This document shows positions 13,886-55,800 of a DNA stretch of 64,000 nt, piece by piece; positions within the stretch are counted from its first letter, which is position 1; the number at the start of each line of letters is the position of its first letter. Source of the stretch: Heterotrichella gracilis (lineage: Eukaryota; Sar; Xanthophyceae; Tribonematales; Xanthonemataceae); the NCBI GenBank assembly GCA_032358255.1, contig JAULBX010018857.1:186001-250000 (forward strand), written 5' to 3'. Position numbers and translations under genes: made by a program. Below the pieces are notes generated by a model. The model made no database searches. It was not told the DNA's origin and saw only the letters and a list, made by a program, of their open reading frames with translations.

Positions 13886-13921
<36 letters not shown>

Positions 13922-16900
13922 CGCGGCCGCCGCCGCAGCAGCAGCTGCCGCAGATCGCGCCGACTCGTCCCGCACGCGCTGCTCCAGGCTGCGCACATAC
14001 TCCTGCAGGCCCTCCACCTTCTTCTCAACCTCGCCGGTGTACATGCGCTGCTGGGCGATCTGCGCACAGCAACCAAATAATCATTGGCATGTGTGTGGAT
14101 ACTGAACCATAATTCAACAATGAGGAATGACAGAAAGCCACCCATATTTCTTAGCGACCACAACATCTATAAAAAGTATTGTTACATGTTTGAATTCAAT
14201 ATGCTCCACCACAATCATATGGCAAGTCAGTCATCAGTCATTCTTGGTAGTTATGACCCACCTCCTGGTCCCTGGTCTCCACCAGCGCCTGCGCCTGCTT
14301 GAGCTGCCCCTGCACCACCTCCACCTGCTGGGAGGCCAGACTGGCGCTCACCGCCGCATCTGTGCGCAGCCGCTCGCCCTCCTCCTGGCTCTGGCGCTGC
14401 ACAGCCTCGAGCTCCTGGGACAGTGGGAGGCAGGTTTTTAGGGTTTTATGAATTGGGGCGTAGGGTTTCGCACTGCACAGCTTCCCAGTGGCTAGGCCGG
14501 TGGGACCAGGGATGCAGGACTAAGGGTTTTTAGGGTTTTGGGCCAAGCGCTGCACAGCTCCAGCTCCTACACAGTGAGGGTACGACACGAGACCATGGAA
14601 GCATCAGCAAGGGTGGCGCATCCACATCCACACCGTCCACATCCACCCCATACCCACGCATTTACACAGACAAGTACATGCATCCACGCAGCCACGCACC
14701 GCCACCCGCTCAACCAGCGTTGCCTTCTCCTTGGCCACGCGCTTGGCGTCGTCCCTGCGCTGCGCCTTGAGCCGGCTGGCCTGCGTGTCCGCCTCCTTGA
14801 GACGCGCAGCCAAGTCGTTGGCCTTGGCAGCCGCAGCCTGGCGCTCCTCCTCGCGCTCTTGGCGGGACCACTCCAGCTGCTGCTCAAGGGTGCGCGCCTT
14901 GGCCTGGAGGGGGAAGGGGAGGGGGGTGAGGAACTAACGGTGGGTGATGGGGTGGTTGGGTGTGCGACCTGGCCTAGCAGGTGTGGGATACACATTTGTG
15001 GCTGCACAGCGCACGGCTGGCAACACAGCTGCCCATAACCGCCTGCATGCCCAGGGTTAACGGCCGCCGCTCAATATACCCCTCACCCACAGCTCCCACA
15101 TGGCCTCCACCGGCGCAGCCAATGATGCAACGGAGCATGTGTCACTGCACAGCACAACACGCCGACCGCCAGCCCCTCCCCCCCTCCACCACACACACGC
15201 CCACCCACCTGCAGCTCCCGCTTAGCCTCCGCCAGCGCCGCCGCCTTGGTGCGCAGGTCGCCCTTGGCGCTGTTCAGCTCAGACTCCAGCTCAGCTGCCC
15301 GCTCCTGCAGCGTCTTGACATCAGCCGCAAGCTTGGCGTTGGCCTCAGAGGCGCGCTTCAGCTGGCGCTCGCTGTCCTCCTCAACGGAGCGCACCTGGCG
15401 GGACAGGGCGTCGGCCTGCGGAAAGATTTATTATTATTATACCGTAATAGGGGTTTTCGTGGCTTCAGTTTAGTGTACTTAGTGTACATAAAGCCTGCGG
15501 GAGGTTTTGTATGGCAACGAGTAATTAACTCTCAAGAGCTGGTAATATTTGTGGCTAAATTGTAGACGAATACAGATATCTGCTGTATGTTTTCGTCCTT
15601 TTTGTAGAGCTGGCAGGGCACGGGTGAGAGGCTGTTGCAGCAGCTACAAGCCAAGCTCAGGCTTGCAAACAGAGTAGTAATAGTAGTTACATGCATTCCA
15701 GCAATACAGCCAGATTAGCAGTGGAAACAAGCACTTCAGCATATCTACACCACCTACCCTTGCCGTGCACATGCAGCCAACAGTCCCCCAACCAGCCACG
15801 TGTATTGCCACCCACCCGACATGCATGCATGGAATGCCAATCCTACGCCACCTACCCTTGCTGTGCTGGCCTGCGCAGCCTCCAGCAGCATGCGTGTGGC
15901 CTGCTGGGAGCAGCTGCTGTAGTCTGCCAGCAGGTGCATCAGCAGCTCGTCTGCCCCCACAGCCCCCTTGGCGCTGGCTGGCGCCTGCTGCTGCCCTGGC
16001 TGGGCGACGCCTGGCTCGCCTGCAGCCTGAGGAAGCAAGGAAGGAAAGGTTATGATAATAGATTATTGATTATATCAGAATTCAATGACGTCAGTAATTA
16101 CAGCATTGACCAGCAGAGAAAGGACCTCCAGCTTACATGCAGGCATTTACTGCATGCAGCTTGCTGGATTGCAGATGGATTAAACACTAGTTACCTCACC
16201 AAAAGCACCACGAGGCCAGCACTAGCATCTTAAATAGGACATGGAAAAGTGCCCACAAACTTGACACCCCATAAATTCCCTCACAACCCCAGAGCAACTT
16301 GCCTGTGGCTTGGCCTCGCTAGAGGCCGCGCACAGGACCAGGCCCCGCAGGAGCCTGTCCCGGGAGATGTCGTCCCCAAACACCCTAAACAGGGTGTGGT
16401 ACAGCCCCGCCACAAACTCGCGCACGCGCGCCTGCTTGGACTGCGCCAGCGCCTCGGCAAGCTGCAGCAGGACATCAAAGTCGTGGTGCGCCAGCAGCAG
16501 CGGCGGCGGGAACATGGGGAAGGTCGGGAAGGCGGGCGGCGGTGGCGAGCCGTGCAGCCCCGCCCCGCCCGCCGTGAACCGCGGCGCTGTCCCGTTGCCC
16601 TGCGCGCCTGCGTTGCACCATTACAGCGACGTCAGGGAGAGTAGAGATACAGGGACGGGGCAGGGATTGCATGGTGGACAAGTAATACAACATCTGCATC
16701 AGCACCCAACCGCTTGGCGCCGGATTTGCAACACCAGCTGCTAACCTGGCAGCACAGCATTGCTGGAGTACATAGAGTCATAACTCCACCTTTGTGCGTT
16801 CCCTTTCTTTCTTCCTTTCTACATGCAACCTACCTGCAGCGTCCTCTGGTGGTGTGGCTGCGGCGGTGCCCAGCGCGCCCCACAGCGGGCGGGCGGTGCT

Positions 16901-19900
16901 CTCCACAAGCTGCTGCATGCGCCGCCGCTCGATGACCGCCGTCACATCCACGGCGTTGAACAGGCCCCGCGCCGCGCACCGCTCAAACGTGTGCCCCACC
17001 TCCTCCGCCAGCGAGGGCATGGCCATGATGTCCAGCATGATCTCAATGTCAGCCACGTAGGGCGAGGTGGCGTCAAGGTCGTCGGGCCGCGTGGACATGT
17101 CCTACAGGGCAGGTTGGTGTCCTCTTATATTTATTACTGCTTTGAACTTTTCTTATTCTTTTTCTCATTTCTTTGGCAATTTTTTTTATTTTCTTTTTTA
17201 TGTCGTGGTAATTCGCTGCTTATCCTCATTTTATTTCATATTCACCATCTAAGAAATATGTGGAAATGTGGAATAAGCTGTCAGCGAACTGTGAGATTAT
17301 CATTGGAGGATAACGAGGCACGCACACCACTCTGCATACCCTCCCTGCCAACAGGGACCCGCACCTGTGCACTGGGCGGCTGCACCGCCCGGGCGTGCCT
17401 GCTGTCGGCATCGATGTCCGCGAGCATGCTCTTGGCCACCTGGCTGTGCTGGCGCACTGCCAGGCGCATGGCGTCGAGCGTGCCCGGCGACACCCCGCCG
17501 CGCGCCGCCATCACGCGCTCCCGCACCGCGTGGATGGCGCGGGATTGGCTGGTGGCGGATTCGCTTGCCAGCTTGAGGATGAGGCCAACCGCAGGGGGGA
17601 GCTCGGCTTCAGATAGGTTGGGGAGCGCCTGCGGAGCGCAAAGGGATGTATGAAATATGTGCTGTATGAAATATGTAATCCTTTTACGCATTTGTTTTTA
17701 TTTTTTATTTTTTGCAAGCCGCAGCACCGCCTGCTTTGCCACCACTGAGTTGCAATGCATGGAGCCCAGCCCTGCAAGCACAGGCATGCACAGCTCAGGA
17801 CTGCTCGACAGTCTTCCCATCAGTCATCAAGAGACCTTGGCCATTTAAATGCTCTATATTTTATATTCATTTCTATTTCAATCGTTTGCTTTTCTTGGCC
17901 ATTTTTGCCCACGTACATCCAACGCCGCCAGCAGCACCCGCTCAGCCACCGCAGGGTCGATGTGCAGCGATCCAAGCGCCGCCAGCACGGGCATGCGCAG
18001 CTCAGACTCCAGCTCCGGACCCTCGCGAGACGCCTCTGCCAGTCTGCCCAGCAGCGCCCCTGCAGCGCCTGTGTGCTCCTGTGGCTCCACCAGCTTGGGT
18101 ACTAGCAGGACCATGTCGGCCTGGAACTCACGGGGGAGCACTGCGGACGGGGGGGGGTAAGGGTTTATGACCAAAGTATGGGGTTGAATGACATGCACAG
18201 AGGGCTTAGGGTTTAGGGTTTAGGGCACTGCGGATGAGGGGATAGGTTTATGACAAGGTAAGGGGTTGAAGTTACATGCACACAGTGCCCAGGCGCACCC
18301 ACTTGCCAGCGCATCACGCACACAGGTTGCGTCCCCACTTGGCCCCCTCCACGCACCCACCTGCCAGCAGCCTCCCCCACCCCATCCCACACACCCTTCC
18401 ACCCACCTGCCAGCAGCAGCGACAGCGTCTGCACGCTCCCGCGCGCCTTGGCCACCAGCGGCTGACCGGGGTCAGGCGCACCGATGTACAGCAGCGCCTC
18501 CACGCTCCTCAGCCACGTGACCACCAACCGGATAGTTTCCAGCAGCTCCTCTCGCGTGCACCCGTACTTGGTCAACTGCACAGGTCACGAGGGGGGGGTG
18601 GTTGAGAGGGGGTTACCTGGGGCTGGCGCTTAGCAGCGGCGCTTGGCACCAGTGCATGGCGTTTTAACTGCAGTGGATAGGCATTCCCAGAAGCCATAAA
18701 AAATTGCACAAATGCACACATTTGCGCTGTTAACTCCACTCGATATAAAAGAATGTTGTGTGAATAAATTTCATACGCTAGAGACACATGTTTTGGCACC
18801 TAAGGTACTGTAGCTGTTACTAACTTGCCCACCTCTTCAGCGCCTGCGTCAGAGCTGGCACGCGATGTGGAGGTCAAGGTTTCGGCCTCTCGGCTGTCCT
18901 GTACATGCAGCTCGCTCAGGCAGCCAAGGTCAGGCTGGCCGTCCTGGGGATGGGGGTGGGGATGCAGGGTCAGTATATGTGCGGGAGAGTGCAGAGCCGT
19001 GGGCATGCCACTGCGTTGTGCGGTGTGCACCTTTGGGTAGCAATAAATGATAACAAAGTTCAATCAATTGAAATTTCATTGTTATGTTATGTAATACAAA
19101 AGAATGGAATGATGTTGAAATCATTAAAATGGAACAATATTGAAAAAAACACATTATTAGATATAGATATGAAGTACGACACCCACCTGTGATGCGCAGG
19201 CAGTGTCCTGCTGCGACAGGCTGCCCAGTGACTGGGCTGTGCCTGCCCGCATGGCCGTGACGGGGCGCGCCAGGTCCGACCGCGACGACGTGGTGGTGCT
19301 GGCGGTGTCCTGCTGGCGCTCCGGCTGTGCGGGGAATGCGTAGCCGGAGCTGTACATGCCACGCTCTGCAGCAGCTGAAGGGCAAAAATAAGTGGATGTG
19401 GTAAGTTAGTTAACATATTTATTGAGCAACTTGGCTTTGAGAAAGAGCTGTCCACAGGAAGCGCTCACCCAGTAGCCAATCAGGATTATGAGAGGCACCT
19501 TGTATATAGTTTAGGGTTCTGCAAACAGGCTGCTGGATATAGGGTATTGACCAACCCTACCTGTCGATGTGGCGCAGGCTGTAGCAGTGGCGGTGGCAGT
19601 GGCCGGTGCCGCAGCTGCCGGCTGCATAGCCCTGCTGTACTGCAGCAGCGTGTCCAGGATGAGCTCCACCAGTGGCTGCTGCAGGTTGCGTATGCCCACC
19701 AGCACATGCAGGAAGCAGGGCTCCACGCCGGGCTGGGCCTGGGCGGTCAGCGGCATCAGGCACTGGCGCACCTGGGAAGGAGCAAGCACAACCGTTGGCA
19801 AACACAAAAAAAGAAAGGAAAAAGAACTGCCAGTAGGTGTAGGAAGCTTTGTACCAAGCCGGGTGGCCCTGGGTAGTCAGCGGCATCAGGCACTGGCGTA

Positions 19901-22900
19901 CCTGGGAGGGGGCAACCAGGGTTAGCAAAACTGTCTACAGAAATTGGGCTTCGTCGTTGGCAATGGTGGCAATAAGAAGCCATGGCGCACCCAGTGTGCC
20001 CTTCCATGGGCCATGCACAGATTTAGCAGCTGCGATGCGCCTGCAGGCATATGTCTCCAAACCCTCCAGCCCTCACCCCATCTTTAGTGAGTCACAAAAT
20101 ACAAACCTGTCACACCCGCTTTCATCTTGATCAGATCCCTGAGGTAGAGTCCGAGCCCTGCCACATATGCCAAACCCTAAACCATGGACATTAAACCCTA
20201 CCGCACCCACCTTAATTGGGTCGCTGAGGTAGAGGCGTAGCCCCGCCACAAACGCCGCTGCAGCCTGTTGGTCCACCAGCAGCCTGTCGCGCAGCATCAT
20301 CTGAAGCGTGGCGCAGTCGCTCAGCGCGGGCGCAGTGCTGCCCTTGCCAAAGTACAGCCCAGCCTGCGGCAACATGAGGCAGGTATTTAGGTGCGTGCAT
20401 TCTATCAGTTAGATGAGTACCCATCCTTGCGAATGCGGCGCCCAAGCACCTCTATCCTAACACTGTTTACCCGTACTCCAAGCGTGGCCTTGAAAAATGT
20501 CTACTCCCTGCCCAGCTCCGACCTCCAACGCATCCAGATAAATATACCAATTACATGTACCAATGGAGGGGCACCGGCCACAAGTCCTGCTTCCCGGTAC
20601 TGACCTGTGCCAGCGTGGCCTTGAACAGATCGTCCTCCCTGCCCAGGTCCGACCCATCCGACCCCACAAACTCCTCCCCCTCGGTGCTGGCAGCTTCTGT
20701 CTCGTGGTCCGAGGCATAGACCTCCAGATCCATGAACTCAAACCAGGGGCAGCACTCTGCAATTTCGCAGTAGAGCACCACGCTGTCCCGCAGCAGGTAG
20801 CCGGCATCTGGGTCAACCAGCTCGGAGACCTGTGTGTGGTGAGGCATTGGGTTGGTGGAAGTGTCCCCAATTGTGTTCGGGGAGTAAGGTATAGGACATT
20901 TGGCTGAGCTGACGGGTGCCGCACAGGCGCATTTTGCAATTCGGGCATGACCATGCATTTAGGTTGAAAGTTCAAATTCAGGATCCCAGATCAACATGCC
21001 AGCCCGCGACTGCCGGTTCACTTTCCAGTGCGCTTGATGATGTCATGCTTTATGTTTAGCTCCCAAGACTTACAAACCTTGCTTCCCGTGCAAACACAAT
21101 AAACCCTTTATGCCCCACGTGCCACGCAGCACACCTTCATGAACTGCAGCACCGAGTTGTTCCACGTGCGCGTGCAGATGGCCGACTCCTTCCACTCGGT
21201 GGTGTCGCTGTGGCGCTGGTTGGACACCGCGATCCTGTACTTGACCCAGAAGTTGCGCTCCAGGTCACCGCCCAGCGCGTCGCTCTCCAGGTAGATGCAC
21301 AGGGTGTCAAAGGACTCGTACACGCCCATGCGCAGCTCGCAGCCCCCGATAGAGAAGTACCTGCGCCGTGGGTCAAGCTCATGCAAAGGATTCATTTTCC
21401 TTGTCAGAAACTCAGCTTTTTTTATAATCGTCAGAACTTCGTTTTTCCAAGTCCATACAAAAATCCAAAATAGTCTGTACTCACAAAAACATATATAATT
21501 TGTAATCACATCAGTAGGGATCAATGCCATTGTTCTTCAGTGCCTTGGCAGCTTGCATTACCAGTGCAGCTGAATGTCATTATCTGTCTGCCCCAAACTG
21601 CAGAGGCGCAGCACATGTTGCCCACCTGCTGAAGATCTTGCGGGTCTCCATGATCTCCTTGAAGGCCAAGAAGTTCTCAATGCGCCAGGTGAAGTGCATC
21701 TTGGTGACGCCAGACACAGGCGCGGCCATGGGCCCCTCGGTCTGCGGCGGGGCGGCGATCAGGGCGGCCTGCTGCGCCACCAGCTGCATGTTGTCGCTGC
21801 TGCCTGCCGTGGCGCCATCCAGCGGCAGCTCCCGCAGCTCCGCAGCCTCCTTCAGGATGAGCACCTCCGCGCTGAACACCACCGCGTCGTTCACCAAAAA
21901 CCCTACACAGTAATTAATTAATGTTCATGACAAGATAACAATGCGCATGTAGTTGAGTAATGAATTCCTTTATAAGAACCTGATTCCAAAGTTTCATCGC
22001 AAAAAGCGGTCATTAGTATGGTTCAGTCAGTCACACCGCAGTGCGCCGCCGCGCCGGCGAGCTATGCATGCGCGGGTCCGTCTGCTTCTGTGCAACGTCT
22101 TTTCAAACGTGACACCACCGCGCGATTGGCGCCCTCCTTGAGAATGAGAGCTTTGGCGCTAATGCCACCGCATCGTTCACCAAGAACCCTGCATGAGTGC
22201 ATACAGCAGCCCATGATGATCCTGTGCGCCTCGGCGAGGGCCATGCATGTGTGTTCAAGCAGGCTTGACACAATCGGACCCTACTGCAAACATGTAGCAA
22301 TGGGACTCAATTACCTGCTCAGATTTCATGCTATTGCAATTGTGCAACCCCACACGCCCCCAATACTTGCACGCACTGCCTGCGCTGGCTGCTGCTGTTT
22401 CGCGCCATGCAGGTTATGGTTGAGGGCTTAAGGTTTAGGGTTTTGGGGCGTGCGCACACCTGCGTCCTGGTCAAAGAGCGAGGTGAGAGTGAGGAACTCG
22501 CGCCAGCCCCAGTCCTTGGCGGCCTTGGAGTAGCGGTTCTGCGACTCCTTGGTCACCGACTTGTCGTCGCTGCGCTGGTTCACCACCGACAGCCTGTGGC
22601 TCACAAAGCAGCTCCACTCGGGCGCGGTGCACTTGGGGTCGGTCACCTCCAGGAACATGGACAGGTGCATGGGGGGCTGGGACTGGCCTGCGGGCGCCAC
22701 AATCGCAGCTGCTCAGGCACAGGTGGAACACTGGGCACGGTGTATTGGGGACTGGTTTTCGGGGCGTACTCCGCCACGTAGAAGTGGCACAAGCTGGGTG
22801 CTTAGTTTAGGGGCTTTCATTTAAAAAGGAAAAATAGAAGAGGCATCTAGGTGGGTGGAGCATCAGGCAAGTGACCCCAATGCATGGATGAAGCAATTCC

Positions 22901-26162: not shown

Positions 26163-26319
26163 TACCATTATAGTCCAAAGAGCACGAAAGTGCGGTAAGC
26201 GGCACGACTGGTTGGCCACCATCTGCCACACTCGAAAGAGTGTCAGTTAAGCCTTGGCTCTAGGACTGGGGTGAGGCATACCCAGACATGCTAACCTGGC
26301 TTCGAAGCTGGAAAGCAAA

Positions 26320-26354
<35 letters not shown>

Positions 26355-26367: not shown

Positions 26368-26407
26368 CTTGGAAACATTGGAACTGCCTAACCTTCTGTT
26401 CTGATCA

Positions 26408-37802: not shown

Positions 37803-40800
37803 GCCGTTCAAGGCGGGACTATCGCTCCATTTTCGTTTTGGGCATTATTTTTGGGACTTGCTGGGTTTGAGAGTTCTCAACTTTGGGCGATGCCCAGAGA
37901 GAAGCACCTCATACTGTGTGCGCCTGCCTTTGCTGCACAGCGTCTGCTTGATACTGGTCCTGAACTGGGCGTTAGGTATCGGCCACCAGCACTCACCAGG
38001 CCGGCAAATGGGAGTATCTACGCACCAGGCGTGCTTGATGGTGAAGCAAGCAGCAGTGGCAGCGACAGCGACAGCGACCTCTCAGGTGAGAGGACGTCCA
38101 AAATAAGCACAGCGACTGCTGTGCTAGTGTTGTAATTGTACTGCATTGGCTAGGCCGTTGCAAAATTGAGCGCAAATGGGACTGGGGTTGTCATTGACTA
38201 TGCATGCATGCAACAATTATATACATGCATGCATATGCCTGAGTCAAACACCATACCCAGCGAGCATTGGCAATGAGACAATAACTCACACCACGTCATT
38301 GCCTATTGTCCTCGTCACCTTCACCACCGCTGGTCATATACTACATGGAAACCTTTACCTACTCCTAATGACCCGTCGTTACAGGCGGTTCTGTAGCCAA
38401 GCGCAGCCGTGTGGGCGACAGCAGCTTTGCCAATGGCGCCCTGGCTGCTGCGTGTGCCAGCGCCGGCTCCGTGCCTGGAACCTCTGCAGGATTGTTGCCG
38501 CCACCAGCTTCTGTCCTGCAGCAGCTCCAGCAACAGGCGCTGTACCCCTGTGACCCGGCATGGCAGGCAGCGCTACACGGCTCCCAGGGGCTGTTGCCGG
38601 TGCGTTTGCCTCACTGCTGGTGTGTGTGTGCGTGGGGGGTGAACAAGGTGTTCAACAGAGCATCCACTGAACAAGCAAACACACTGATCATTACATTGCA
38701 TCGCCCCTTGTGGGCAAAAAGGCCGCCATCCAGTGACCGATGGCATGCAAATGCGTTTTTCTGCCTTGTTTATGATTTGTGCGCACAGTCACAACCGCTT
38801 GACGGATGCGTATGGATGGGCGATGCACAGGTTGTGAGGCATGACGCCGGGTTGGCGCCATGCAATGGCGCACGCGCCGGGGAGCTGATGCCATGCTTCA
38901 GCCACCCCGAGGCAACAGTCTCTGCCGCAGCCTTTGCGCGTGCGCTGCGTGGCAATCAGGAGGCGCCAGGCTCCACACAGGGGTTTGGGCAGGATGTGGT
39001 GGAGGCGCTCTCCATGCCAGTGCCACCCATCCAAGTGGGGTACCAGGTGAGTGAATGACCCTAACACAGAAACAGAAACCCTAAATCTATGTTAGGGATG
39101 GAGGATGCCTTGGCATGCATCATGCAGCATGTATGGACAACGGGCAAGGACGGCGTCCATGGCGACGCTATACATTCCCCCTGTGCATTTTTTGTGCATG
39201 TCCATCATCCTAGCGCGACTCCACCTTGCAACGGTGTTGAGCACGTAATCTCGACCACTTGTTATGGGAACGATTTGGAGAGCACACGCTCAAGCGCACT
39301 GGCCATGCGAGCATCCAGCGCCAAGCTGTTGCCACAAGCCCTAAGCCCTAATATCTGAACCCTAACCAGCTGTCATGTACCACATGCGCACCCTTCTACA
39401 GGGTGATTGGCTGGCCACGCATGCATCCAGCGCCAAGCTGTGGCGTCATGCCCAAACCCTAAACCCTGATCAACGATCATGTGAAACACTCGCCCTTCTG
39501 CAGGGTGATTGGCTGGCCACGCGGGCGTCCAGCGCCAAGCTGTGGGCCCAGGCGCGTCTGCAGCCCTTCTCACCTCCCAAGATGGCCATGTACTACGCAA
39601 TCTGCCAGGAGGCAGCCGCTGAGGACACTGCACGCTTCCTGCAGGTACGTACACCACACGCGCCACCACATGGCATGTGAATCATGATGGAATGCGGAAC
39701 CCGTGTGTGGGGGCTGCGCCGCCACCTGCATAATATATGCAGAGATATAGACATGGATGATTATTTATAATCGATTTCCTGTAAAATCGTGGTGTTCTAT
39801 GCAATCTGCCCCGAGACACTTGCGCCCACACAGCACGCTTCACAGGTGCTCTCACATGCACAACCCAGCGTGTGCTATGCACGTATGTATTCATCAATCT
39901 GTTAAATTTATTCTGCCACAGGATGTGGGGCAGTGCTACCACGACATGGGGTATGGTCGCCACGTGGCGGCGCAGGGTGCGGAACGACCAGGTGGCATTG
40001 TGACTGTGCCCCAGTTGGGGGGGTACCTTGAGGGGGTGCGGCGGGCAGTGGAGCAGCTGCAGCGGGGGCTGGAGAGGGCGCCGCCGGACATGCGGTGCGG
40101 TGCATGCCCTAAACCCTAAAAGTCTTGATATGAATACCTGACCTGCGGTGCGGTGCATGTCGCAAACCTTGGTTGGTGCAACGGATGGCAATGCTGATGA
40201 GATTGTGAGCGGTATGCCTGAGAGGATACCCCGCCTGTGGATGGGTAGTTTATCGCAGTTTTGCGGCTCGATGTTGTTTGGCTGGCAGCGACACTTGCAC
40301 GCTACATTTTCCCTTCCTGTTTTGCCAGGTCTCCTTGCCAGCGTGATTCGCGGTGTGTTTGCTCAGCCATGGCCACTGCGCAGGTACCTCCGAGGGAGCC
40401 TGGATGACGAGTGCGACGCCTCCCTTGTCATTTACCTGGTGGGGCCCGCCACAGGCGATGCAGACATCTTGAAGGCATTTGGGGAGGTGGCCACTGTGTT
40501 TGGCCCCAGCACGCATGACCTCGCATCCCAGGGGCCGCATGACAGCGCAAGTGGCCAACAAAAAAAGTAGGTGTTGAGGGGCTGTTACCTGTCGAATTGG
40601 AAAGATATGATGACAGCTCTCTTGCATTTTGAATGCCAAGCTCTTGTGGTATAATCTTGATGCATGATTGTGCAGGTGCGTACGCAGGAAGTACCTGAAT
40701 GATATCTTAACGTGTTGGCCAAAATGGCATGTAGGCCAAAATAGCGCAGATACATTGTACTCATAATCAGCATGGTGGTTGTAACCGGCTGCACTGCTAC

Positions 40801-43800
40801 TACGCATGCATCTAATAAACCTCCTATACCCGCCTGTATAATAATACGTCCTGTTTTTTTCTGATCACCCTTGAACTGACCGCAGGGCGGGGCACATCAG
40901 CCAGGGGTTTTGGGGACCCCCTGAATCCAGCGCGCTTGATAAGTACGAGGGTGCTGTGCACCTCAGCTTTGCCCCAGCGTCCTCTGCCCCCTCCTCCGAC
41001 CAACAGGGTCCGCCCACCTGGGCCCTCACCAGCCCCCGACAGCCTGTTGGCATCACGATACAGGTGGGTAGATACCCTTGTGCAGGGTGAAACAGGGTAA
41101 CAACGAGTGGAAGGGAGCGTGTGGTGAATTCAAGCTGTCGGTGGTTGCTGCCATTATCTGGCGTTGACATATGCGCCAGGAACCACTCCTGATGTAATGG
41201 GAGGTGCAACACATCAGCCGACTGCGTGAACTGGTGCACTAGAACTTATCAAAGTATTGGTACAGGCAGATGATGAGTTTACCTAGAAACAGCCCATGTC
41301 AGCATGCTTTTGTTGCACATGCAGGTTGTCACCCAGTTGGCCCTCCAGGACCTGACAAGCACCTCCGCTGTCGCCACGGCCCAAGGGGTGTACACCAAAA
41401 TCAAGCCCGCTGTGCTGGACGTCACCAGCCTCATGCCCTCCCTCTCCCGCGCACTCTCCGACGTGGTTTCATCCCCTGTGGCCCGGAGGTTCCGCTCCGA
41501 GGGATTTGACAGCAACGAGGAGCAGCTGGGGAGGAACCTGCAGGACCGATACCTGCAGCAGCGCTTTGCTCCCCCGTTTGTGTTGGCGGATGGCGCACCC
41601 CTTGACAACACAGGGTGCGTGCAGGGATGGCATGGTCATTTTTGGCCAGGGACATCCTGATTTGCAAGCTTGAAAAAATACTGTTTATGCCCTTTCCAGT
41701 GTGCGCAACCTGTATGCCTTCTGGCTGTGTTGCAACCTTGCAGATGGAGGTTAGGGTCAGGATTTAGGGTTCAAAGAAGGCCACGGTATGGGATTTCAGA
41801 CTGTGTGTTCCTTGCAGGGAGTCGTCAGGCGCAGCGGGGGGCGCCCTCCAGCTGGTGATCGATGCCCAATCCCAGACGCTCCACTGCTGCTATGCTGTGT
41901 TGCCCGCCGGTGGCGCATCAGGTCAGCCTCACTCTTGCTTCTGTAGTCCCTTCCCATGCCCCGCACACTGCATGTCAGTGCATGTTGCGCAGATGATGCA
42001 AGCGTGGAGGTCTGGTGAGAAGAGAATCAGATGTGGCATGGCATGAGTCGGGGGTCTACATGTGTTGCCAAACCCCTGGTGGATGCCGTCTAGCATTGCC
42101 CTCTGCCTCCTGGCACAATTACCCCTTGCGCAGTTATTCACCCTTGCAACCTGGCGGATATTGCCTGCCATGGCATGATATTCACCCCTTCCCACCTGAC
42201 GCGTACCCCCTGCCACCTGGCGCATTGCAGGCGCACTGCTGGTGCTGACGTGGACAGACTGTCGAGGGGAGCTGATGGAGTGTGCAGTACTACCCCTTGA
42301 GGGGGAGCAGCATGCACAAGGAGGGCCCCTCAGCCCAGGGGTGGCATCCACCTCAACGTCCCCTCTGCAATCACGTGATGTACGTGGTTTGCTGGGTTGC
42401 CATGGGTAGCATTGTACCGGTGACATGCTCGCGCACGTTATTGACATTTTTTCTCTGGGGGTGCATTTCCTAGCTGACTTGTCATAAGGGCTCTGTCACT
42501 ATACGTAGTTGCCCTAGGTTTCTCATCGTATGTATTCCACGCGCGTTTGGCCTTCGCTGCAAGCCTATTTCCAACTGCAGACCCCGACCCTGGCATGCGC
42601 TGTCATCTTGCAGGTATGCGCCCTGGTGCTCCAGGAATGCGCCAAATTGTGCCAGCCGCCACGCGCGCAGCGCACCACGCCAACCTCTGCACCACCCACC
42701 TTGGCCCACCCTACCCCTCGCAACAGAACTCCCTGCTCTAGCTCCTCCCCGCCCTTTCCAGCTGTATCACCCTGACTGTGGCATGCACTGGCACATTGCA
42801 GGTGTGCGCACTGGTGCTCCAGGAATGCGCCAAGACCGTGTCAGCCGCCACGCGCGTAGCGCACCAGGCCGACCTCTTCACCACGCTGTGCATCACCCAC
42901 CTTGGGCCTCCGCAGCAATCGCAGTGGGACTCCCTGCTTTCTTCCCCGGCGGATATCCCCCTGGTGGCCGGGAGCGTGGGGTCTGTGGTGGTTGCGTGCC
43001 TGCAGTTGCTGCCGCTTGCAAGGCTGGATACCACGTGGGATGAGGTGGTGGGCTGGCATGTGCTCATGCATCGGGGAGGCGCTGCGGCAGCACCAGGTGA
43101 GCAAGACAAAAAAGGAAAATGCCCAGTCCAAAACATCATGCTGCATGGTCCCTGGACTGGAAGAGGAGGGCATTATTGCCGTGCTGCAATGCAATGCAGG
43201 GACATGGTGCACTGGCTACATGCAGATTCAATCTTAGCTTTATTGGAAGCTTGAAAATCCAAAGGAAAGGATTGAAGGTTTTTTGCGCTTGCAGGGCCAG
43301 CGGTGCAGGCGACGGTGGTGATAGGCCCACCAGCAGACCCCTCCACTGCCCTCCTCCCGGGCGAGTGGGACACTGTGCGAGCCTTCCAGCTGACCCTCAT
43401 CAGCCACTGTGACTATACGCAATCACTAGGAGGGCGCATAACCGCCACCAACAAACTGGCTGCCCCACCCCTTGCGAGCCCTTCCTTGGCTCAGGAATCC
43501 GACCACAGCAGCCTGGTCACCTCCCCTAGCCCCCAGTACGATACCCCCCCTGGAGGCGGGACGACGCAAAACCCCAACCAAACCCTAGCCCAGCTGTGTG
43601 CTGAGCTGGCGGGGCTGTCCCTGCTGAGCCAGACGTACCAAGGGGTGGTGTTACACAACGTGGCGTCCTACAACGGGACGGGGTTAGGACAGGCGGGGTG
43701 GGCGGGCCCCAGCGCCCACCTGCCCCTGCACTGCGCCTGTGCACAGTTGCTAGCTGCGCTGGTGGATGGGGTGTGTGGTGGGGGGCAGCAGCAGGCCAGC

Positions 43801-43821: not shown

Positions 43822-44250
43822 AACATGCCAGATTGCTGTCATGTTGCCTGCTTCAAAACCAAGGCACGTGCCAGCACTCTTGAGTCTTGAGTTTCCAGTT
43901 GACAATGTTGACTTTCCAAATTGTTGTTACAGGTTTTTATCACTCCGTGCAACGTCCGCTTGTACTTTCTTGTATGTTCTTTGCTAGGCGTCAGTTTGTT
44001 GCATGCGAACTTTCGATATAAATCATCTCAGTGGATCACTGAACCTTCAATGCACGGGATGTCAAATCACGTCAGATAGCCAGGGTTTTGCCTGGCAGGC
44101 CGGCGCAGCACCTTCAGGCGCTCTCAATAAATTTGATGCCACAGTGGTTCTAGCCTGGCATGGCTGCGACCTCAAGTGCTCTCAATCGCCTTAACAAAAA
44201 CTGATGCAGTTCTGTGGCCAGACATCCACCATGGGACCACATGCTGCTCC
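43822..44250. other. Spacer between tail-to-tail genes
   Basis: This is the shared 3' flank of the MED13-like gene and the plastid HExxH gene. No open frame of interest is visible. 'cgctctcaat' recurs near 44119, 44177 and 44258, with related neighbours, suggesting small local duplications. Confidence 0.45.
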
Positions 44251-47200
44251 TCAAGCGCTCTCAATCGCCTTGACGCACTCCCCCACGGGTTTGCCGTCCC
44301 GCATGGCCTCCTGCAGCGCCGCATACTCCTTCTCGTAGCTCTTGAGCAGGCTGGCTGCCTGGTACACAGCCCAGCGTGTGACGTTCTGCTGCTGCGCCCC
44401 CGACAGCTTGTTTGTGCTGCGGTTGAGGATGCGCTGCAGGTCCGACAGATCGGCGGTCTGGCCCATGACCTGCAAGATTAAAGGCGGTGGTTAGGATTTG
44501 CTATACAGTATCGTCTATACCCTAATAGGGTTGATGCGCTGCAGGTTGGCGGTCTGGCCCAAGACCTGCAAACTATAAGGGGGGTTTAAGGTTTAGGGTT
44601 GAGGATGCGCTGCAGGTCAGCGGTTTGGCCCATGACCTGCAAAATGAAGGGGGTGGTTGGGATTTATTATACCCTAATAGGGTTGAGGATGCGCTGGAGG
44701 TCAGACAGGTCGGCGGTCTTGCCCATGACCTGCGCACACAAAACAGGCGGTTTACTTACATGCACTTGCCTCGCCATGCAACTGGAATTACCATATAATT
44801 GAACATTCTTTCAAAGACTTTTAAAATCCAAGACCTTTGACAACGTTGTGGAGTTTAATGCAATGCAGCAATAAAATGTACTGAATCATCTGGAATGTAA
44901 GTGCTGGAAACCCAACTTGTGATCTACCAAACAACCCTCACCTCCTCGTATTTGACCGCCTCCGACGCCGCCCCCGCCATCGCCACCACCGCCAGCGCGT
45001 TCACCTCCTCATCCGACAGCTGGCGCTGGAACAGGCGCTGCTGCAGCTTGGCCTCGAGGAAGTCGACGTGCGCCTGGCCAATATCCAGGGAGTAGCCAGT
45101 GATGGGGCAGCCAAGGAGGTAGCCCGCCTGGGGGTGGGGGTGGTGGGTTGGGTGGGTACGGGTGGATGATGGGGTTGGGAGGGGAAAGGATGATGGCGGC
45201 TGGAGAAAAATGTAGGTGGGTAGGAGGTATGGTACTCATTAAGTGCTTAGTTTACTGCACATCGCAACCCCATGTTCACTCCCTCTTGACCCCATAATTC
45301 ATAACCTGCCTCTCTCTGCACCCACCAACCCCAAACCCTCCACACCTAACAGTGCGCTGCCTCGTGTCCCAGCACCCTGTATCGCACGATACCTTGACAC
45401 CCCCACAACACCCTCCACCCTGAATCCCAAACACCGCCTCATGACCCAGAACCCATTTCCCTCACCGAGGTGCACCTTAAAACCTAAACCCTGCATTCTG
45501 CATTCCACCCACTCACCAGAAAGTGCGCGGCCTCGTGTCCCAGCACCCTGTCCCTGTAGTCGGGGTACACCTGCGAGAACTTGTCAATGATGACGGACAG
45601 CAAGCCGGGTGCGGTGGAGCCAATGGCCAGCACCACCAGGCTGATGCCGCCCACAAGGTAGGGTACAAAGAAGCCCTGCGGGAGGGGAGAAAATGAGCAG
45701 GGTCGAGAGGGGCATGGTTGCGTGGGAATAGTAGGAATGGCCATAGGAGTTACATTAATATTGGCGCCGCATGTGCAAGGCAGACTGATAATCTGGCTGT
45801 ATTGCTGGAATGCTGTAACTAACTAGCTGACTATTTACATTTGTATGTGGGTGGTTCAGATGAGCTGCACAATGAAGTGCTCATATGACAACCATATTTG
45901 AAATAAGCCCCTGCCATTGCCATGACCCCTGGCGGAGATGTGTCAATGATTGATGCCATGCAGGGGGATGGTGGAGAGCATGGCTGTGCAAGTGACGGAC
46001 TTGTTGGGTTTCAAGCCTTGTGCCTGCACAAACGCGGCAGACACACATACTATCGCACATCCCTGGAAACATGAGGTTACCAGCGCTCGAAGCTGCCATA
46101 AGGTGGGCACAAACATTGACAATGACATGGAAGGCGTATTTGATGGAGTGGCCATTGCATTATACTGACCCTACACGAGTTAGCCACGACATGCACACGT
46201 CCGGACATAGCATGCTTACCCAGTCCCCGGGCAGGAAACCACCTGCCACTGCTACCACCGAGGTTGTGCCCACCACAGTGACCAGGAAAGCCATGTCGTT
46301 GCGCACGCTGGGGCGGCCAATCTTCTCAGGGTCCTGAAAAACAGGGGAGCAAGGGTGAGAAGGTGGCTGTGCAAAGCACAGGCCAAGACCCTAAGCGGTG
46401 GCACGATCAATCATTTCTGGGGCCTGGTAACAGGGGAGCAGCGAGCGCGTGGCGCGGGGAGGCAGCGGCAGCAGTGCGGTGCAGGCCACAGGCCAAACCC
46501 TAAACCCTAACCATCAACACCTGCTACCTGCACGCCAACCCTCCTCAGCTCATACAGCACAAGCCTTGGGCCATGGAAGCAACCAAGCCCTGTACATCCC
46601 TAACCCTAACCCTAACCCTTCACATTGCACATAACCCTAAACCCTTAGCACGGACCCTGAACCCTCCCCACCTGCACGCCCACCCTCCTGAGCTCGTACA
46701 GCACCACGTTGCGCCTGTCCATGAAGGAGCGGTTATCCAGCAGGGATCCCCACTTGGGGATGCCGCCGCTCTCCTTGAGGGCAGTGAAGGCGCTCAGCAC
46801 ATCGCTGGAGGCATCAAACTTCTGCGCAGGGTGGAGGTGGGTTAGGTACATGCATTCCAGCAAAACAGTACAGCCAGGTTAGCAGTCTGTCTTGTGGGGG
46901 TGCAAGGGTGGTAACATATGTCCTGGTGGGCGGCTGTGGTTTGAAAGCATACAAGGCGCACTACTGCTACCCTCCAGGGTGTGGAGGGGAGAGTAACAGG
47001 GTTCAAGCGTGGTTGAGGTTTGAGAGGTGGTGGGTTGAAGGACGGAGGATGCTGTTATGCATGCTTGACTTCCTCCAAAAATGCTGTTGATGAGGTGTGT
47101 GGCGGCGTACATTTATAAGTCTTAGGGTTTTGGGTTTAGGGTGGTGCACGTGCGCGTACCACAGAGGGTGGCGCCTGCTTGACATCCAGCAGTGCGTCCT

Positions 47201-48315: not shown

Positions 48316-51300
48316 ATGGCGTTTGTCGACCGTTCAACGCTGTGCTTCTTCTTGCTGTCGGTGCGTTCTGCCACCCTTTCATAGCTTGGCGAATACCTGT
48401 GCGAGGCCCAACACAACAACTGTAGACATAGATACCCGTAAGGAGTGTTATGAAAGTTCAGGCAATAAGTCCTGCCTGGTAGCCAGCACCTGGCACGTGT
48501 GTGCGCTAAGATCACTACTTTTGAACTCGATTCAAAACACCGTTTGCAAAGTGCTGCTTGCCACACCATTGCTGGTGCCAACAGTTGGTTCTTTGCATCC
48601 CACTGGTGCAACCAACACCTTTATGGCTGCCCACTTGCTCGCAAAATGATTGGTGACACCAGTGAGTCTTTGATAGCTCGAGTCCCTGTGCAACCCAACA
48701 CATACATGGTACCTCATAGCTCCATATGCACCTCGTGTGCGCGGCAACCTCTCAGCACTACTGTGTCCTACCAACCCTGTCTCCAAATCTATTTCCAACA
48801 CTGCACACAACCCTGGCATTTCCTCCTCAGTAAGTAACCTAACCCCCTGCTTGCGCTCAGATCGCATACACCGTGGGGTGGACCACCATATCATCGCAGC
48901 TGGGCTACTACAAGGTGCTGTATGGGCCGGGAATCCTCCTGCAGCTCAACATCGCCTACTTCCTCCCCTCCATACCCATACTGCTCTGCCAGCAGGCGTT
49001 TGACGAGTATTTCGATAAGGCATGCGGCGTAAGGCGGGCCATGCTGGCTCGATTCTTTGTAGGTGCGCGCAGCCTCAATGTCACTGCAGTACATTATCAT
49101 GCCACCATGCTGAGTTGTGCGTATAGTGACTTTACATGCCATTATAAACTCCATGGAAAGTCAGAGTTGGCTGAAAATGCCCCAATCCTAGAGTTTGCAG
49201 TCATGGACTTCACAGGAATGCGTGAAGTACGATAGTGCGTGTCCGAGTACCACCTTACACCTGGTGCAGGGTTTGGTGGCAGCGCCTTGATCACCGCGCT
49301 CTTCCCGCTGCAAGCCTCCAGCCTGCACCTGCTGGTGGCAAGTACAGTGACCCTGGGCCTGTGCTGCGGGGTGGCATTCGGGTGCTCCTACGAGCTTGTT
49401 TCTCGCTTCCCCGACAACAGCAGCGTGGCGCTCAATCTAGGTAGGGAACCTGTCCTACTTACGTTCTAACATGCGTTTCAGCCTAGGTGGAACTGAGCGC
49501 CAGGCATTGCCACCACTCGCGTGTCTGCAAAGCCCGCCACGGTGCTTATATACCACAGGCAATACATGGATCGGCGCCAGGCAATGCAACCACTCAAGGG
49601 GCCTGTATTGCATGATAAACCTCCTTGCATGTGCATATATGGACCAACTGGCTTACCAGCCCTTCCCTCCCCTGCAGGTTTTGTATGCAGCGGTCCCCTA
49701 GTCCTGCTATTGGAAGCTGCCCTGCGCATCGGTCCTCGGCCCCAAGCCAGGCAACAGGTGGTCTTGTTCGAGGGGGTGGCGGTCCTTACCCTCATAGGGT
49801 TGGTGGCCGCCATGGGGGTGCTTCGCAAGGTGGCCCCAGAGGAGGTGGAGGTGTTGGACTTGGCAGGGGAGGGGCCAAGGGAGGCGGTGGATGGGTGGGC
49901 GGGGGAACGGGGAGGGAGCTTCACGCAGCAAGGCGCAAGGTGAGGGGCGGGCGAAGGGTGAGGGCCAAGGGTGGCAGTGGTCAGGAGCCTGTTGTGCTGT
50001 GCTGGCGGGTGCATATTGGGGCTAAGGAGTAGTTGTTGAAAGTGAAACTTGGGTGCTGGAGGGTAACACAAGGTGATCAGTGGGAGGTGGATACGCCATT
50101 TATATAATCTGGGAGATTATTTAGACTTGAGTTACATCCTATGCAGTTTCTGTGATTTTTCATGGTGCATATTTTTGTGAGATGAATGCAATGCAATGCC
50201 TTTCCGACCCATTTAGGCCTGGTGCTGGTGCCCGCAGGTACATGCCCCGCATTGCAGCAGATGGGGCATCTCCCACATACAGGTGGGGCCTGCCCACCTA
50301 CTTTGACCCAAGCACGCCCCATGCGGCGGGGTCGCCCAACGCACTGGACGCCTCAAAGCGCCAAGAGGAGAACGATGAACAGGAGACACTGGCGTTGCTG
50401 CAGGTATGGGACAGGGGGATGGCACTTGCTGTTGTCTTTGCGAACCCTCTTCTGTATACGTTTATTTACACAACAAACAGTTACTGCGGATTTATTGAAT
50501 TCGTGTACGTTTTTGTATCTGTTGGGTATAAAGTTAGGTGTGTCAACACTGAATCTGCGATGAAACAAATACTTCCTTCACTATTTCTGTTTTGATACAT
50601 TTGTACTTAACTGGCACTGCACCTGATGACAGCGCAAACAGCATCGTATTTCCTGTAATTTGTTACATTCTTAAAAATACCGTGATGTTTCTATTACTGG
50701 GGTTGCTGCAGCCGGATGACAGCGCCAGCAGCAGTGCGGGCTCATCCGATGCCAGCATCTTGGGAACCAAGGCTGTGATCCGGAAAGTGAGACCCTTTGG
50801 AGTTGCGCTCTTCCTCAGCGTGGTGACCTCGGTGCTCCTGTTCCCCTTCTTCACATACATACCCACATGCGGGACCTTTGGGGAGATGCTGCCACAGGTG
50901 AAATCACATGCATGGCAACACCCTGTGTACCACCACGCGCACTACAGTTACCACGGGGGTCGTGCATCCAGTTGGTCTGGGCCCCACATCATAACAGGCT
51001 CCCACACTGATGTACAACCCCTTGCCCTCCAGGTTATCTTTGCGGTGCCTGAACCTAAGCCTTAAACCCATAAGTTGTCTTTAAGCCTAACGCCTCAACC
51101 CTAAATTACTCCGCAATTGCCCCCGCAGGTCATGTTTGCGGTGCGCGTTCTGAGCGACATACTCGGGCGCGTGGCCCCGGCGCGCCTGCGCACCCGCTCG
51201 CCGCGCGTGCTGCTCGCCCTGGCCGCCCTCAAAACCGCCACCACCCCGCTTTTCTTCCTCTACCTGCTCCCCCTGTGGCCCAGCCACCGGCGCAGCGACG

Positions 51301-51593: not shown

Positions 51594-52860
51594 CGCAGCT
51601 GTAGGGATTTATGCTTAGGTTTTTGTCTGCTGACACTTCAAGTGAGTCTATTAGATGCAAGTACCATTTTTGTACTGAGCCTGTGAGTTTCCCAATATCA
51701 TAGCTTTTATTAAGCAAGTACGACTAAATTAGATGATTGCATTGCAATTTGCAATTCCCAATAGCAAGTTGAAATTGGTGTATCATAGTGACAGAATAGA
51801 AAGACAGAAAGGGAACGCGCAACGGGTGCGTACAATACAGTAGCAATTCATCTTATTTGGCAATGCCAGGATATGTCCTAGGAGGACAAGCCTTGGCGGC
51901 TCTCTATTAGTAAAGCACACAGTGCTTGATGCGCAATTTATGCAGGGAGCGCCCGGCCCGGCACTGAGACCAGACTTCAGTGCAGGTTAACATCAGGCCT
52001 GGGCCGCATTCCATCACAACTGCACACCGCGTCATGCCATGCGGCGCATTCACATTCCATTTAATGTAGCCCATGTGCATGTTCACTGCCACGGCGAGCC
52101 TGAAAGTGATACCCAGGATTACGGGATCCATAGCTCCAAACCGAAATGAATATCATAGAAAATAACATCTTGGCAATCTCACTTGAAATGCAGCTTGATA
52201 CAAAACTGGTGTGCGCACTGGAATCCACTGCAGACTCTTGGCAAGAGTGCATGGTATAAAAAAGCCAATGACCAATACTGCCAAAACATCGTATGCATCG
52301 CACCACAATGAGTGATGCACCATTCCTGCATGATCCAATATGCAAATTTTAGGGTCAGGGACCCCATGTATGACCCATAACACAATGCCATCAGCGACAA
52401 GTTCGGCTACAGTCTCACAACAAAATCCATTTCGAACAAATTCATAAAACAATTCTGCAAACTTGCACATGATGCAGCCAGCCTGGCTGCCCATTGGCAC
52501 ACACAGCTCGCTGTTGCACGTGGATCAGCCAAGCACCCTGGGATTTTGCACCCTAGGGGTGCACATGGGCCTGTAATAAAGCCGCTGACGCTCTGGGTGG
52601 ATTCCACAAAAACACTGCAAGCCCCACCAACCCTTGAGGAGCATTGGCACCCAGATTCATCATCCGCCTGCTCAGCATGCCTCAAAACCTTTAAGCCGCC
52701 ACCCCACAGACGTCCTCACAGCGCCAAGGGCGGCGATTGCATGACATAGCCTGAGGGCTAGCCAGGACACAGCGCGGGGGTGCGCTGGGATATCCAAAAG
52801 CCCTGCTGCGCTGGTAAAAACCAACTTGAAGCCCCAACTGCCAACCACTTCAGCTGGCAC
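51594..52860. other. Spacer between tail-to-tail genes
   Basis: No gene is supported here. Minus-strand frames near 52060-52685 are Cys/His-rich and without domains. No repeats stand out. Confidence 0.45.
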
Positions 52861-55800
52861 TCACACCTTGGAGTAGCCGTCAGCCCCATGCGGACCGCTG
52901 TAGGGCGGCGCCTGTGGGGCATACCCCGAGGGCTGGCCATAGGGCTGGCCCGGGTAGGGCGCAGGGGGAGCGCTGGGGTACCCAAACCCTGGCTGCTGCC
53001 CCGGGTAGGGCTGCTGGTGGGGGTGGGTGTAGTGCTGCGGGGGCATGGGGTACTGGCCCTGCTGGCCTGAGGGTGCCCCGTACTGGATCTCCCCACCTGG
53101 CTGCTGCACAACTGCGCCCACGGGCACCTGCGCGGTGCACAACCACTCCTTCAATGCCATGGTACCTCAAGGGCAACAGTGTACCAGCAATGCAACATCG
53201 CCCCCCACCCCCACCCCACCCTCCTCACCTGTGCAAATACCTGGTGCGCCTCAGACCCCCACATTCCACCCCCTCGCGGAGTGCAAGCACTGGGCAAGTA
53301 AACCCTAACCCCAAATCCTGCAATGTGAAGCTGTGCAATCATGGCACAGCGCACCCAGCATGCACATGCATATGCAATCACCCCACCTGTGCAAACACCT
53401 GGTGCACCTCCACGCGCGTGACTGCCTGCGTGTCCTTGTCCATTGCGTAGCACATGTACACCGCGTCAATCACGTTGAGCAGCACTCCGCTGAAGAACAT
53501 GAGCACAACCAGCGACAGCACAAAGGACAGGCCGCCCACGATGCCCGCCTCCTGCAAGAGGGGACAGCGAGAAAATTTGGAATGGAGGAGAGGATGGCGA
53601 ATATGGGCACAACCAGCAACAGGCCAATAGAGAGGACAACCACGACGCCCGCCTCCTGCAAGGGGAGGAGGGTAATTTTATGAAGATGGCGGAGCGAACC
53701 ATGGAGAGAGCAGGGGATGGAGAGGACAGGAGGAGAGGCGAGAGTTGCTTGCCGCTGGTGATTTTAGGGGATTCACAAGCATGCCGCACGCGCACTAGTG
53801 TCACAGCCTTGAAATGCTGCCATATCAAATCCCAGATGCCCGAGAAAGACGCCAATACTGCATGCGTTGCCCCGAAAAAATGCACCTGGTCAAGGACAGA
53901 CTACAAACTAATCTGAGCTCAAATCACAAAGATGCATATTCTAAGCTGATTTGTTTCTACATCATTTTCCCGTCATGAGTTTTCTCCATATCGCTCCTTT
54001 CAGGCAATTTGTCAAATAACCACCAACCCACTCACCATGTGCGCATTGTTGTGGCGCGAGAAGCCCAGGTAGCTGAGCCCGTAGATGGCCATGGCACCCA
54101 CCACGCTCAGCGCAAAGGAGCCCAGGTTGAGCACCATGGGCGGGAACCACCACACCCCATAGGTCTTGAGGAAGTTGCGCGCCAGGAGCGAGGTGGCGCT
54201 GCGCCCCGCGGCGAAAAAGGCCTCCCCAGTGATGGCCATGCGCACCGTGGCAAACTTTGTGATGAACTCGATGAGCGCATACACGCAGGTGAGGAGCAGC
54301 GAGCCGCATGCAATGAGCAGGTTGTCGCCGCCGCTCTCTGCGCGCTTCTCCTTAGCCCTGTTGGAACAGGAAAATATTACAACTTTATCAACAATTAGAG
54401 GAAGAGGGGATTTCTCATGCAGGATCAAAACTTTTGCATAGCATTTGCATTGTCATGCAGCCATTGCGTGACGGTTGCATAAGGAGTGAGCCCCCTGAAC
54501 CAAAGTGCCACTACGGGCATGGGAGAATGCTTCCTCCCATCTACAGTAATGCTTTGCTTCCTCATATTTTGCCCGTGCACGATGATGCTATGCCAGGAAT
54601 AGATGGCAAAAATTGCGCATTCCTTCCTTACTTTTCCATTGCCTGGCGCGCCATCTGGACCAGCGTGAGCACCAGGCTGCCCAGCGACAGCGACCCAAAG
54701 TTAGGCCCCATGGCGTGCCTCACTGATCGCATGGTTGCCCCCTTGGTGGTGGTCACGCCCTGGGGCTTGAAGTACCACTGCGCAATGACGCCCGCAATGA
54801 CGTACACGCGGATCTGCGAGACACACAAATATATATAAGTATCCAAGCATATTTGTGATACAACAAGCAGGAAAAGCAGCAGATATTGACGATCAGACGT
54901 CTGCAGTGCGCACAGTCCACGGCAAGGTAAAGGGCCTAGTTACCCTAAACCCTTAACCAAACCCCCACAGTGCGCATGGTAGTCCACAGCATGGTGAAGA
55001 GCTTGGTAAACGTAAACCCTAAACCTTCAACCCTAAAGGCATACCTCAGCGGTGAGCATGATGGTCCACAGCATGGTAAAAGGCCCGAGGCTCATGTATG
55101 CCATGGCCCAGTCATCGGGCTGCCACACGCAGCAAGCCACAGGCTGCCCCTCGTCATCCACGCACTGGCTCCTGCCCTCGCGCGCACCTGCGGGGAAGGG
55201 GCGAGAAGGGTTAATGACATGATTACAATCACTGTTATAAGAAAGGATCTCATGAAATCATGTGCACAGCACCGGCTTAGGGGTTGTAAAAGGAGAGAAT
55301 GAATATAAACAAAACCATGACCGATCACATTTAGGGTTAAAATTAGGGTAAGGGTTTGCCCATAGAGGGCGCGGCGTACCGTTAGGCTGCACTGATCCGT
55401 TCATGTACGCCGCGCCCATCATGACCACCAGCGGCAGCAGCGCCAGCGCCAGCACCAGGTTGAGCAGCAGCACAAACAGGAACAGGCCGGGGTTGTCGTT
55501 CAGGCCGTCGGCAGACACCTTGAGGAGCCGCGCGCACAGCTCAATCTGGCTGCGCCTGCAGGGTTAGGGTTTGTGATTTAGGGTTTAGGAGCGGGGCGCA
55601 CAGCTCAATCTGGCTGCGCCTGCAGGGTTAAGGTTTGTGATTTAGGGTTTAGGAGTCGGGCGCACAGCTCGATCTGGCTGCGCCTGCAGGGCAGTCAGGC
55701 GCTATTATTAAGGGTTTAAGGTTTGGGATCTAGGGTTTGGGGCCCACAGCTCGATCTGACTGCGCCTAGGTTTAGGGTTTAGGGTTTTCGTGAGGGCCAA

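Follow-up and report, generated by a model that had tools for sequence, protein, structure and literature searches.

Splice-border tandem duplications with telomere-like repeats between many of the copies in a 64-kb window of Heterotrichella gracilis

We analysed a 64-kb stretch of DNA (positions 186,001 to 250,000 of contig JAULBX010018857.1 of Heterotrichella gracilis), hereafter the window, in which exon edges recur as tandem copies inside the adjoining introns, about half of them with telomere-like repeats between the copies. All counts refer to this window, which has a guanine plus cytosine (GC) content of 53.9% by base counts. Splice sites are the predictions of a gene finder that was self-trained on the window, after which the exon sets were curated by hand, yielding nine genes (A to I) with 67 exons and 56 introns; the 60 introns of the final tally are these 56 and four further introns scored later. 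In the curated models intron length has a median of 282 bp and a mean of 315 bp, and exon GC is 64%. The training gave a donor consensus of mainly AG/GTGNG and an acceptor consensus of mainly GCAG/G, the slash marking the splice site. Pfam confirmed a choline-transporter-like gene (52.9-56.4 kb) and a protein with MATH domains (13.3-24.1 kb), as well as an ATP synthase delta/OSCP subunit, a glutathione-transferase-like protein and a beta-amylase. Resemblances below the Pfam cut-off were found for gene F (MID domain of medPIWI), gene G (ion channel) and gene D (MFS transporter), and gene E was without a match in the Pfam search; the working labels "ENT-like" for gene D and "FtsH-like" for gene E are our own reading. 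Genes A, C and E, which hold 17 of the 23 duplication units described below, read through all their introns without internal stops. The curated joins of genes D and G contain 2 and 7 internal stops, respectively, so that some of their borders are uncertain.

A preliminary description of this DNA had claimed that introns hold decayed tandem copies of the neighbouring exon edge, and every place that it named does carry a repeat. In total, 23 tandem duplication units were found in 20 of the 60 introns. When up to 250 bases of each exon edge were compared with its own intron, 21 of 112 exon-intron sides matched at p<=0.01 (each side shuffled 100 times); 19 of the 112 lay above the 99th percentile of mismatched exon-intron pairs. 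Nineteen of the 21 listed matches start 0-10 bases from the splice site; the remaining two, starting 49 and 139 bases away, are weak. When segments spanning the border were scanned in a second comparison, 24 of the 112 borders reached p<=0.01 (200 shuffles); the 20 units scoring at least 31 were kept, and four with scores of 19, 22, 26 and 27, of which two lie in the ATP-synthase gene, were discarded. Three units were added beyond these 20, namely the donor unit of intron 17629-17916, taken from the exon-edge scan, and the acceptor units of introns 18141-18406 and 41910-42801, the latter with a score of 117 that is without shuffle control.

That the repeats span the splice site, as also claimed, held under stricter scoring for 18 of the 20 kept units, those of introns 20364 and 39645 ending 6-7 bases before the border. 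Among the 19 aligned units the match extends over 3-99 bases of exon and 5-96 of intron; since it includes both, these are DNA duplications over the splice site and not copies of mRNA. Several members are small or weak: the BLAST E values of those at 15.1 and 15.75 kb are 0.99 and 0.081, the acceptor unit at 46.3-46.4 kb scores 31, and the acceptor unit at 18.2 kb and the unit at 40.15 kb include 3 and 11 exon bases, respectively. The functional exon edge is one copy, and the other decays within the intron. The intron side has decayed faster, mean identity of the copies being 0.79 on the exon side and 0.66 on the intron side. A decay model in which the functional exon is constrained gave 0.81/0.71 at d=0.15 and 0.76/0.66 at d=0.2, and the observed identities roughly match a single age with constraint on the functional exon alone. 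In the choline-transporter-like gene, a solved relative of the family aligns over the 55555/55991 junction without insertion (E 6e-6), and the functional border therefore lies outside the copies.

Telomere-like tracts, defined as runs scoring at least 20 with TTTAGGG assumed to be the organism's own telomere repeat, number 34 in the window versus 1.25 expected under an order-3 Markov model, and none lies in a modelled exon. Of these, 27 fall in the 56 introns, where the 19 alternative circular orders of the seven letters gave 1.3 on average and never more than 5. Among 8-mers that recur in four or more introns, the twelve with the highest enrichment are without exception rotations of the telomere heptamer or its hexamer variant. 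Tract density per kb is 7.45 in the gap between the copies (14 tracts in 1.88 kb), 2.21 in the remainder of the introns with a duplication (10 in 4.52 kb) and 0.27 in introns without a kept duplication (3 in 11.2 kb). Counted by intron, a tract is present in 13 of 18 introns with a duplication versus 3 of 38 without (p=1.8e-6), or in 13 of 19 versus 3 of 37 (p=5e-6) when intron 17629 is regrouped as duplicated. The earlier statement that many copies adjoin CCCTAAA is borne out for about half, with an inter-copy tract in 11 of the 20 kept units, but not for the other nine.

The tracts are also polar. In 10 of 11 systematically found events (p=0.012) the G-rich strand runs outward from the functional exon, that is, TTTAGGG lies on the coding strand after donors and CCCTAAA before acceptors; intron 18141, whose acceptor unit was included by eye, conforms as well and brings the count to 11 of 12. 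Because G exceeds C at intron starts (G.288, C.218) and C exceeds G at intron ends (C.293, G.194), the 3' ends that lead outward from exons are G-rich, and this base skew would give a reason for both the place and the polarity of the tracts. CCCTAAA-type tracts within 70 bases of a donor, with no donor duplication, occur in introns 21903, 19366, 39047 and 46822; in intron 27040 a TTTAGGG-type tract lies 68 bases from a donor without duplication, which weakens the contrast between duplicated and unduplicated donors. A small post hoc observation, this pattern hints that polarity is tied to duplication beyond the needs of splicing alone. In intron 20830 a single TTTAGGG heptamer lies close to the donor.

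Three of the acceptor units are arrays. On the reverse strand, the array at 55520-55787 in the choline-transporter-like gene (intron 55556-55990) contains about three extra copies besides the real edge; its unit comprises an exon start of 33-36 bp and an intron end, Tandem Repeats Finder (TRF) reports a 64-bp unit repeated 2.6 times, and CCCTAAA-type tracts lie at 55561-55589, 55625-55653, 55708-55742 and 55769-55787. The reverse-strand array at 44421-44733 (intron 44470-44941) has three extra copies and a CCCTAAA-type tract at 44582-44604, and its intron gave no RNA structure signal (z -0.89). On the forward strand, the array at 39299-39545 (intron 39047-39503) has two extra copies, with tracts at 39336-39365 and 39451-39467. 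In the two youngest-looking arrays, tiny in-frame exon calls encode SQIELR repeats and MGKTADLSDLQRILN (55666-55759, 44673-44729).

Single acceptor duplications with tracts were found at 51022-51144 on the forward strand (intron 50898-51128; tracts 51054-51069 and 51083-51105) and on the reverse strand at 14394-14576 (intron 14415-14699; tracts 14437-14446 and 14529-14542) and 18138-18417 (intron 18141-18406), the last comprising about 70 intron and 3 exon bases with a (CCCTAAA)3-like tract at 18201-18225 at the join. Those without an inter-copy tract lie on the reverse strand at 53495-53665 (intron 53552-54035), 21846-22193 (intron 21903-22459) and 19699-19918 (intron 19772-20210), and on the forward strand at 42568-42938 (intron 41910-42801; unit of about 184 bp). 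The weak reverse-strand acceptor duplication at 46318-46440 (intron 46334-46671) has 16 exon and 18 intron bases and a score of 31. Donor duplications with tracts occur on the reverse strand at 54904-55080 (intron 54814-55044; tract 55013-55037 between the copies and 54942-54958 in the copy), 53223-53410 (intron 53128-53386; tract 53299-53318), 46495-46704 (intron 46334-46671; tracts 46633-46645 and 46495-46510, with TTAGGG hexamers between), 45343-45551 (intron 45128-45516; tracts 45474-45492 and 45410-45432) and 20123-20256 (intron 19772-20210; inter-copy tract 20172-20200). The forward-strand donor duplication at 40084-40168 (intron 40095-40383) is exceptional in the reversed polarity of its tract (40107-40120). 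Donor duplications without a tract were found at 39589-39841 on the forward strand (intron 39645-39921) and, on the reverse strand, at 20481-20654 (intron 20364-20604) and 17718-18005 (intron 17629-17916). Three shorter reverse-strand donor duplications measure 37 bp at 15084-15242 (intron 14904-15208), 24 bp at 15745-15866 (intron 15416-15855) and 18 bp within 18138-18417 (intron 18141-18406). Intron 30498-31179 of the ion-channel-like gene, on the reverse strand, has a perfect (CCCTAAA)3 at its end (30503-30524), separated from the acceptor AG by a few bases, and no copy of the exon edge. Two further duplications were noticed away from splice sites: an 83-bp unit in tandem with 82% identity at 325-496, apparently intergenic, and the stop-codon end of a coding sequence, repeated 79 bp downstream (44170-44274), which is a coding border of another kind.

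We give a probability of about 0.5 to the reading that repair of DNA breaks near splice sites tandemly duplicated segments spanning the border, with telomere repeats at the join in about half of the cases. A break close to an exon-intron border would leave overlapping ends, either because it was staggered or because an end was re-copied. The 3' end that leads out of the exon, which is G-rich whether it enters the start or the end of an intron, would be extended by telomerase or from a telomere template and then joined or re-annealed within the exon, producing the order copy, telomere tract, copy. Splicing would take out the tract together with the spare copy, the protein should stay unchanged and the spare copy would then decay; some tract-bearing edges would be multiplied further by slippage or unequal exchange. 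We infer the breaks, the involvement of telomerase, the order of these steps and the normal splicing of the affected introns from the arrangement of the sequence. The preliminary description had proposed break repair with telomere addition or template switching, and both the inter-copy location of the tracts and their polarity fit that proposal, but a single window does not separate it from an order in which the tract came first. By eye, the copy is without a tract at the matching place in six of 11 events (introns 19772 at its donor, 18141, 14415, 44470, 53128 and 50898) and likewise in intron 40095, which is what a joint origin of tract and duplication would predict. Two joins, again by eye, have 3-4 bases in common with the exon (CCT and AACC).

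Several findings weigh against this reading. The gap tract is absent in nine of the 20 kept units. Exon identity is 0.70-0.79 in tract-free units and 0.76-0.93 in tract-bearing ones, except one at 0.60 (p=0.056); tract-free units thus look older, although not significantly, and decay may have erased some tracts. The tract-free unit of intron 20364 nevertheless has a young best block, with 2 mismatches in 41. The tract of intron 40095 has the opposite polarity. No kept unit occurs in the 18 introns of genes B, G, H and I (p=1.6e-4, given 18 of 56), two weak matches in gene H having been discarded and some borders of gene G being uncertain; the break-repair reading does not account for this. These four genes lie at 9.1-11.2, 26.8-30.5, 35.4-36.6 and 61.2-63.6 kb, whereas in genes A, C, E and F roughly every second intron carries a copy. 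Finally, the copy also bears a tract in five of the 11 events inspected by eye (introns 46334, 54814, 45128, 55556 and 39047), so that at those loci the tract may predate the duplication. Tract and duplication may have been simultaneous at some loci, a tract-bearing edge having been duplicated afterwards elsewhere.

The latter order, generalised, is a close rival of the break-repair reading. Telomere tracts would have been inserted or have grown near exon edges and, being fragile, would have stalled forks and caused template switching that later duplicated the tracts themselves and the adjoining edge. We regard this as possible but hold it only tentatively. It accords with the five copies that carry a tract and with border tracts that exist without duplication, such as the (CCCTAAA)3 before the acceptor of intron 30498-31179; a review (PMC6410037) describes interstitial telomere tracts as sites of orientation-dependent breakage and template switching. 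It does not account for the other six of the 11 copies and that at 40095, which are tract-free, or for the nine of 20 kept units with no recognisable gap tract. An unlikely alternative is that local tandem duplications arise everywhere and those at borders persist recognisably because one copy codes, the tracts being an unrelated intron feature. The better conservation of the exon side, the duplicated stop-codon border (44170/44249) and the fact that exon interiors yielded only a CTG/CAG run agree with such survivorship. The scan concerned (BLAST raw score of at least 34, offset below 400, excluding the CTG/CAG exon run and the repeat rows of one array) found 16 border loci (including 42568/42938), one wholly intronic locus (49497/49574), one at the stop codon (44170/44274) and three elsewhere (325-496, 678-793 and 52754/52996, of which 52754/52996 has one of its copies in an exon). 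Target lengths are 22.2 kb for introns and 26.8 kb for other non-exon DNA, the ratio of start positions for wholly intronic versus border units is 1.41, and detection at d=0.15-0.2 is 0.79-0.34 for wholly intronic versus 0.96-0.75 for border units. Two decay models were used, a simpler one and a later one that adds silent exon change; with the detection figures of the later one, the 16 border loci predict 10-19 wholly intronic duplications, but one was observed (P(<=1) about 4e-4 at the lower expectation), and 23-41 in other DNA versus about 3 observed; these expectations rest on the decay model (its indel rate and equal mutation rates, with decay matched to observed identities), and the other DNA may contain unmodelled exons, but the shortfall is large. 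Survivorship, which had been offered as part of the explanation, is therefore needed, but alone it looks insufficient and is disfavoured by the intronic deficit, and it leaves the gap tracts unaccounted for.

Still less probable, in our judgement, is intron gain by tandem duplication, in which splicing would treat some copies as small new exons or as new introns; the potato RdRp gene, with a duplication that spans an intron-exon border, is the precedent (PMC4974935). The gene finder did propose extra small in-frame exons in two arrays (44673-44729; 55666-55683 and 55748-55759), the acceptor AGs of the copies appear intact by eye and 17 exon-copy alignments are free of stop codons. This set of 17, which includes the alignment of intron 49940 (49 bases off the border and not a counted unit), has copy mismatches by codon position of 19:33:59 (53% third) versus about 44% in a simulated neutral copy, a borderline sign of coding constraint on the copies in which one exon's frame is possibly wrong. 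Several copies carry indels, however, the choline-transporter fold family aligns over its junction insertion-free, and introns flanked by matching copies above the 99th percentile of mismatched borders number 0 of 56, so that no intron flanked by its two copies is seen. Equally improbable is that the tracts are selected splicing or regulatory signals: CCCTAAA as a branch site or pyrimidine tract at acceptors, G-runs at donors, or the telo-box known from plants. Their polarity does parallel the base skew of introns, and a perfect tract makes up the end of intron 30498-31179, but CCCTAAA-type tracts also lie near donors in introns 21903, 19366, 39047, 40095 and 46822, 40 of 56 introns are tract-free, and selection on tracts would not put exon copies alongside. 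Introners, mobile intron-making elements that would here have telomere-like ends, are very improbable. Telomere words are common to several introns, but the 19 intron-intron matches at E<=0.01 comprise 13 that we read as telomere tract and 6 short unrelated ones, and terminal inverted repeats beyond control were seen in 1 of 56 introns; within the window there is neither an intron-wide family nor a set of inverted ends, and Introners were rejected.

Related phenomena are known separately. Short interstitial telomeric sequences inserted at double-strand breaks are described in primates, rodents and horse, with target duplication at some loci and in-register bases pointing to telomerase (PMC2246262 and PMC7215372). 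The excess of tracts and the target duplication, with a gap tract in 11 of 20 units, are features of such break-inserted sequences that were found here, and both systems have internal telomere repeats, none in exons (human), with the target directly duplicated in some instances. In mammals only a minority are plain duplications (4.6% in rodents, 16% in primates, 4.5% in horse), and the 31% located in human introns has been called compatible with random insertion (PMC2246262 and PMC7215372); in the window, by contrast, tracts are concentrated between copies straddling splice sites and are polar relative to the exon. Intron gain by tandem duplication, as described in the potato report (PMC4974935) and a review (PMC3443670), likewise involves a duplication crossing the intron-exon boundary, but the window has 23 units at donors and acceptors, about half with tracts, and no intron flanked by both copies. 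Direct repeats near splice sites have been read as scars of break repair, being pairs of 4-30 bp that mostly join the two ends of an intron (PMC11782384). The repeats of the window are also direct and at or near exon-intron borders, but most are longer and both copies lie at a single border; end-to-end repeats were not in excess.

In yeast, sites of repair-associated telomere addition are TG-rich sequences that prime the addition of telomeres at nearby breaks and give rise to new chromosome ends; the tracts of the window, in contrast, are internal and joined to a second copy. A full-text literature search returned no report of splice-border duplication combined with a telomere tract among its top results, a weak negative because few subscription journals are covered. 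Telomeric insertion at breaks and border-crossing tandem duplication are each known, and their systematic polar combination was not found in this literature.

A stronger form of the break-repair reading, which we consider rather doubtful, is that splice borders are preferred sites of telomerase-assisted repair. G-rich 3' ends leaving exons would prime telomere addition, the healed end would be rejoined inside the exon, and the tract and spare edge would be turned into intron; in that case telomerase would continually build and remodel introns. If the pattern extends genome-wide, it would represent a mutational process at exon-intron borders that adds intron sequence while leaving proteins intact, and the role of telomerase in ordinary break repair would become measurable through many datable scars of readable polarity. 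It could also be a source of new intron ends, because several acceptors here are preceded by telomere repeats.

Rfam and tRNA scans of the window gave no matches. Relatives were not found among viral contigs or, in a search made with one gene, among plasmids. Separate from the telomere theme, a dispersed short repeat with the core TGCTGGAATGCATGTA occurs in two introns, at 15684-15722 and in intron 45676-46273, as inverted copies of 39 bp with 95% identity, and the core recurs at 46847-46862. A glutamine-rich coding tract with CTG/CAG runs (13274-14059) ends the MATH-domain gene, and a pure TACT microsatellite of 8.8 copies lies at 26320-26354.

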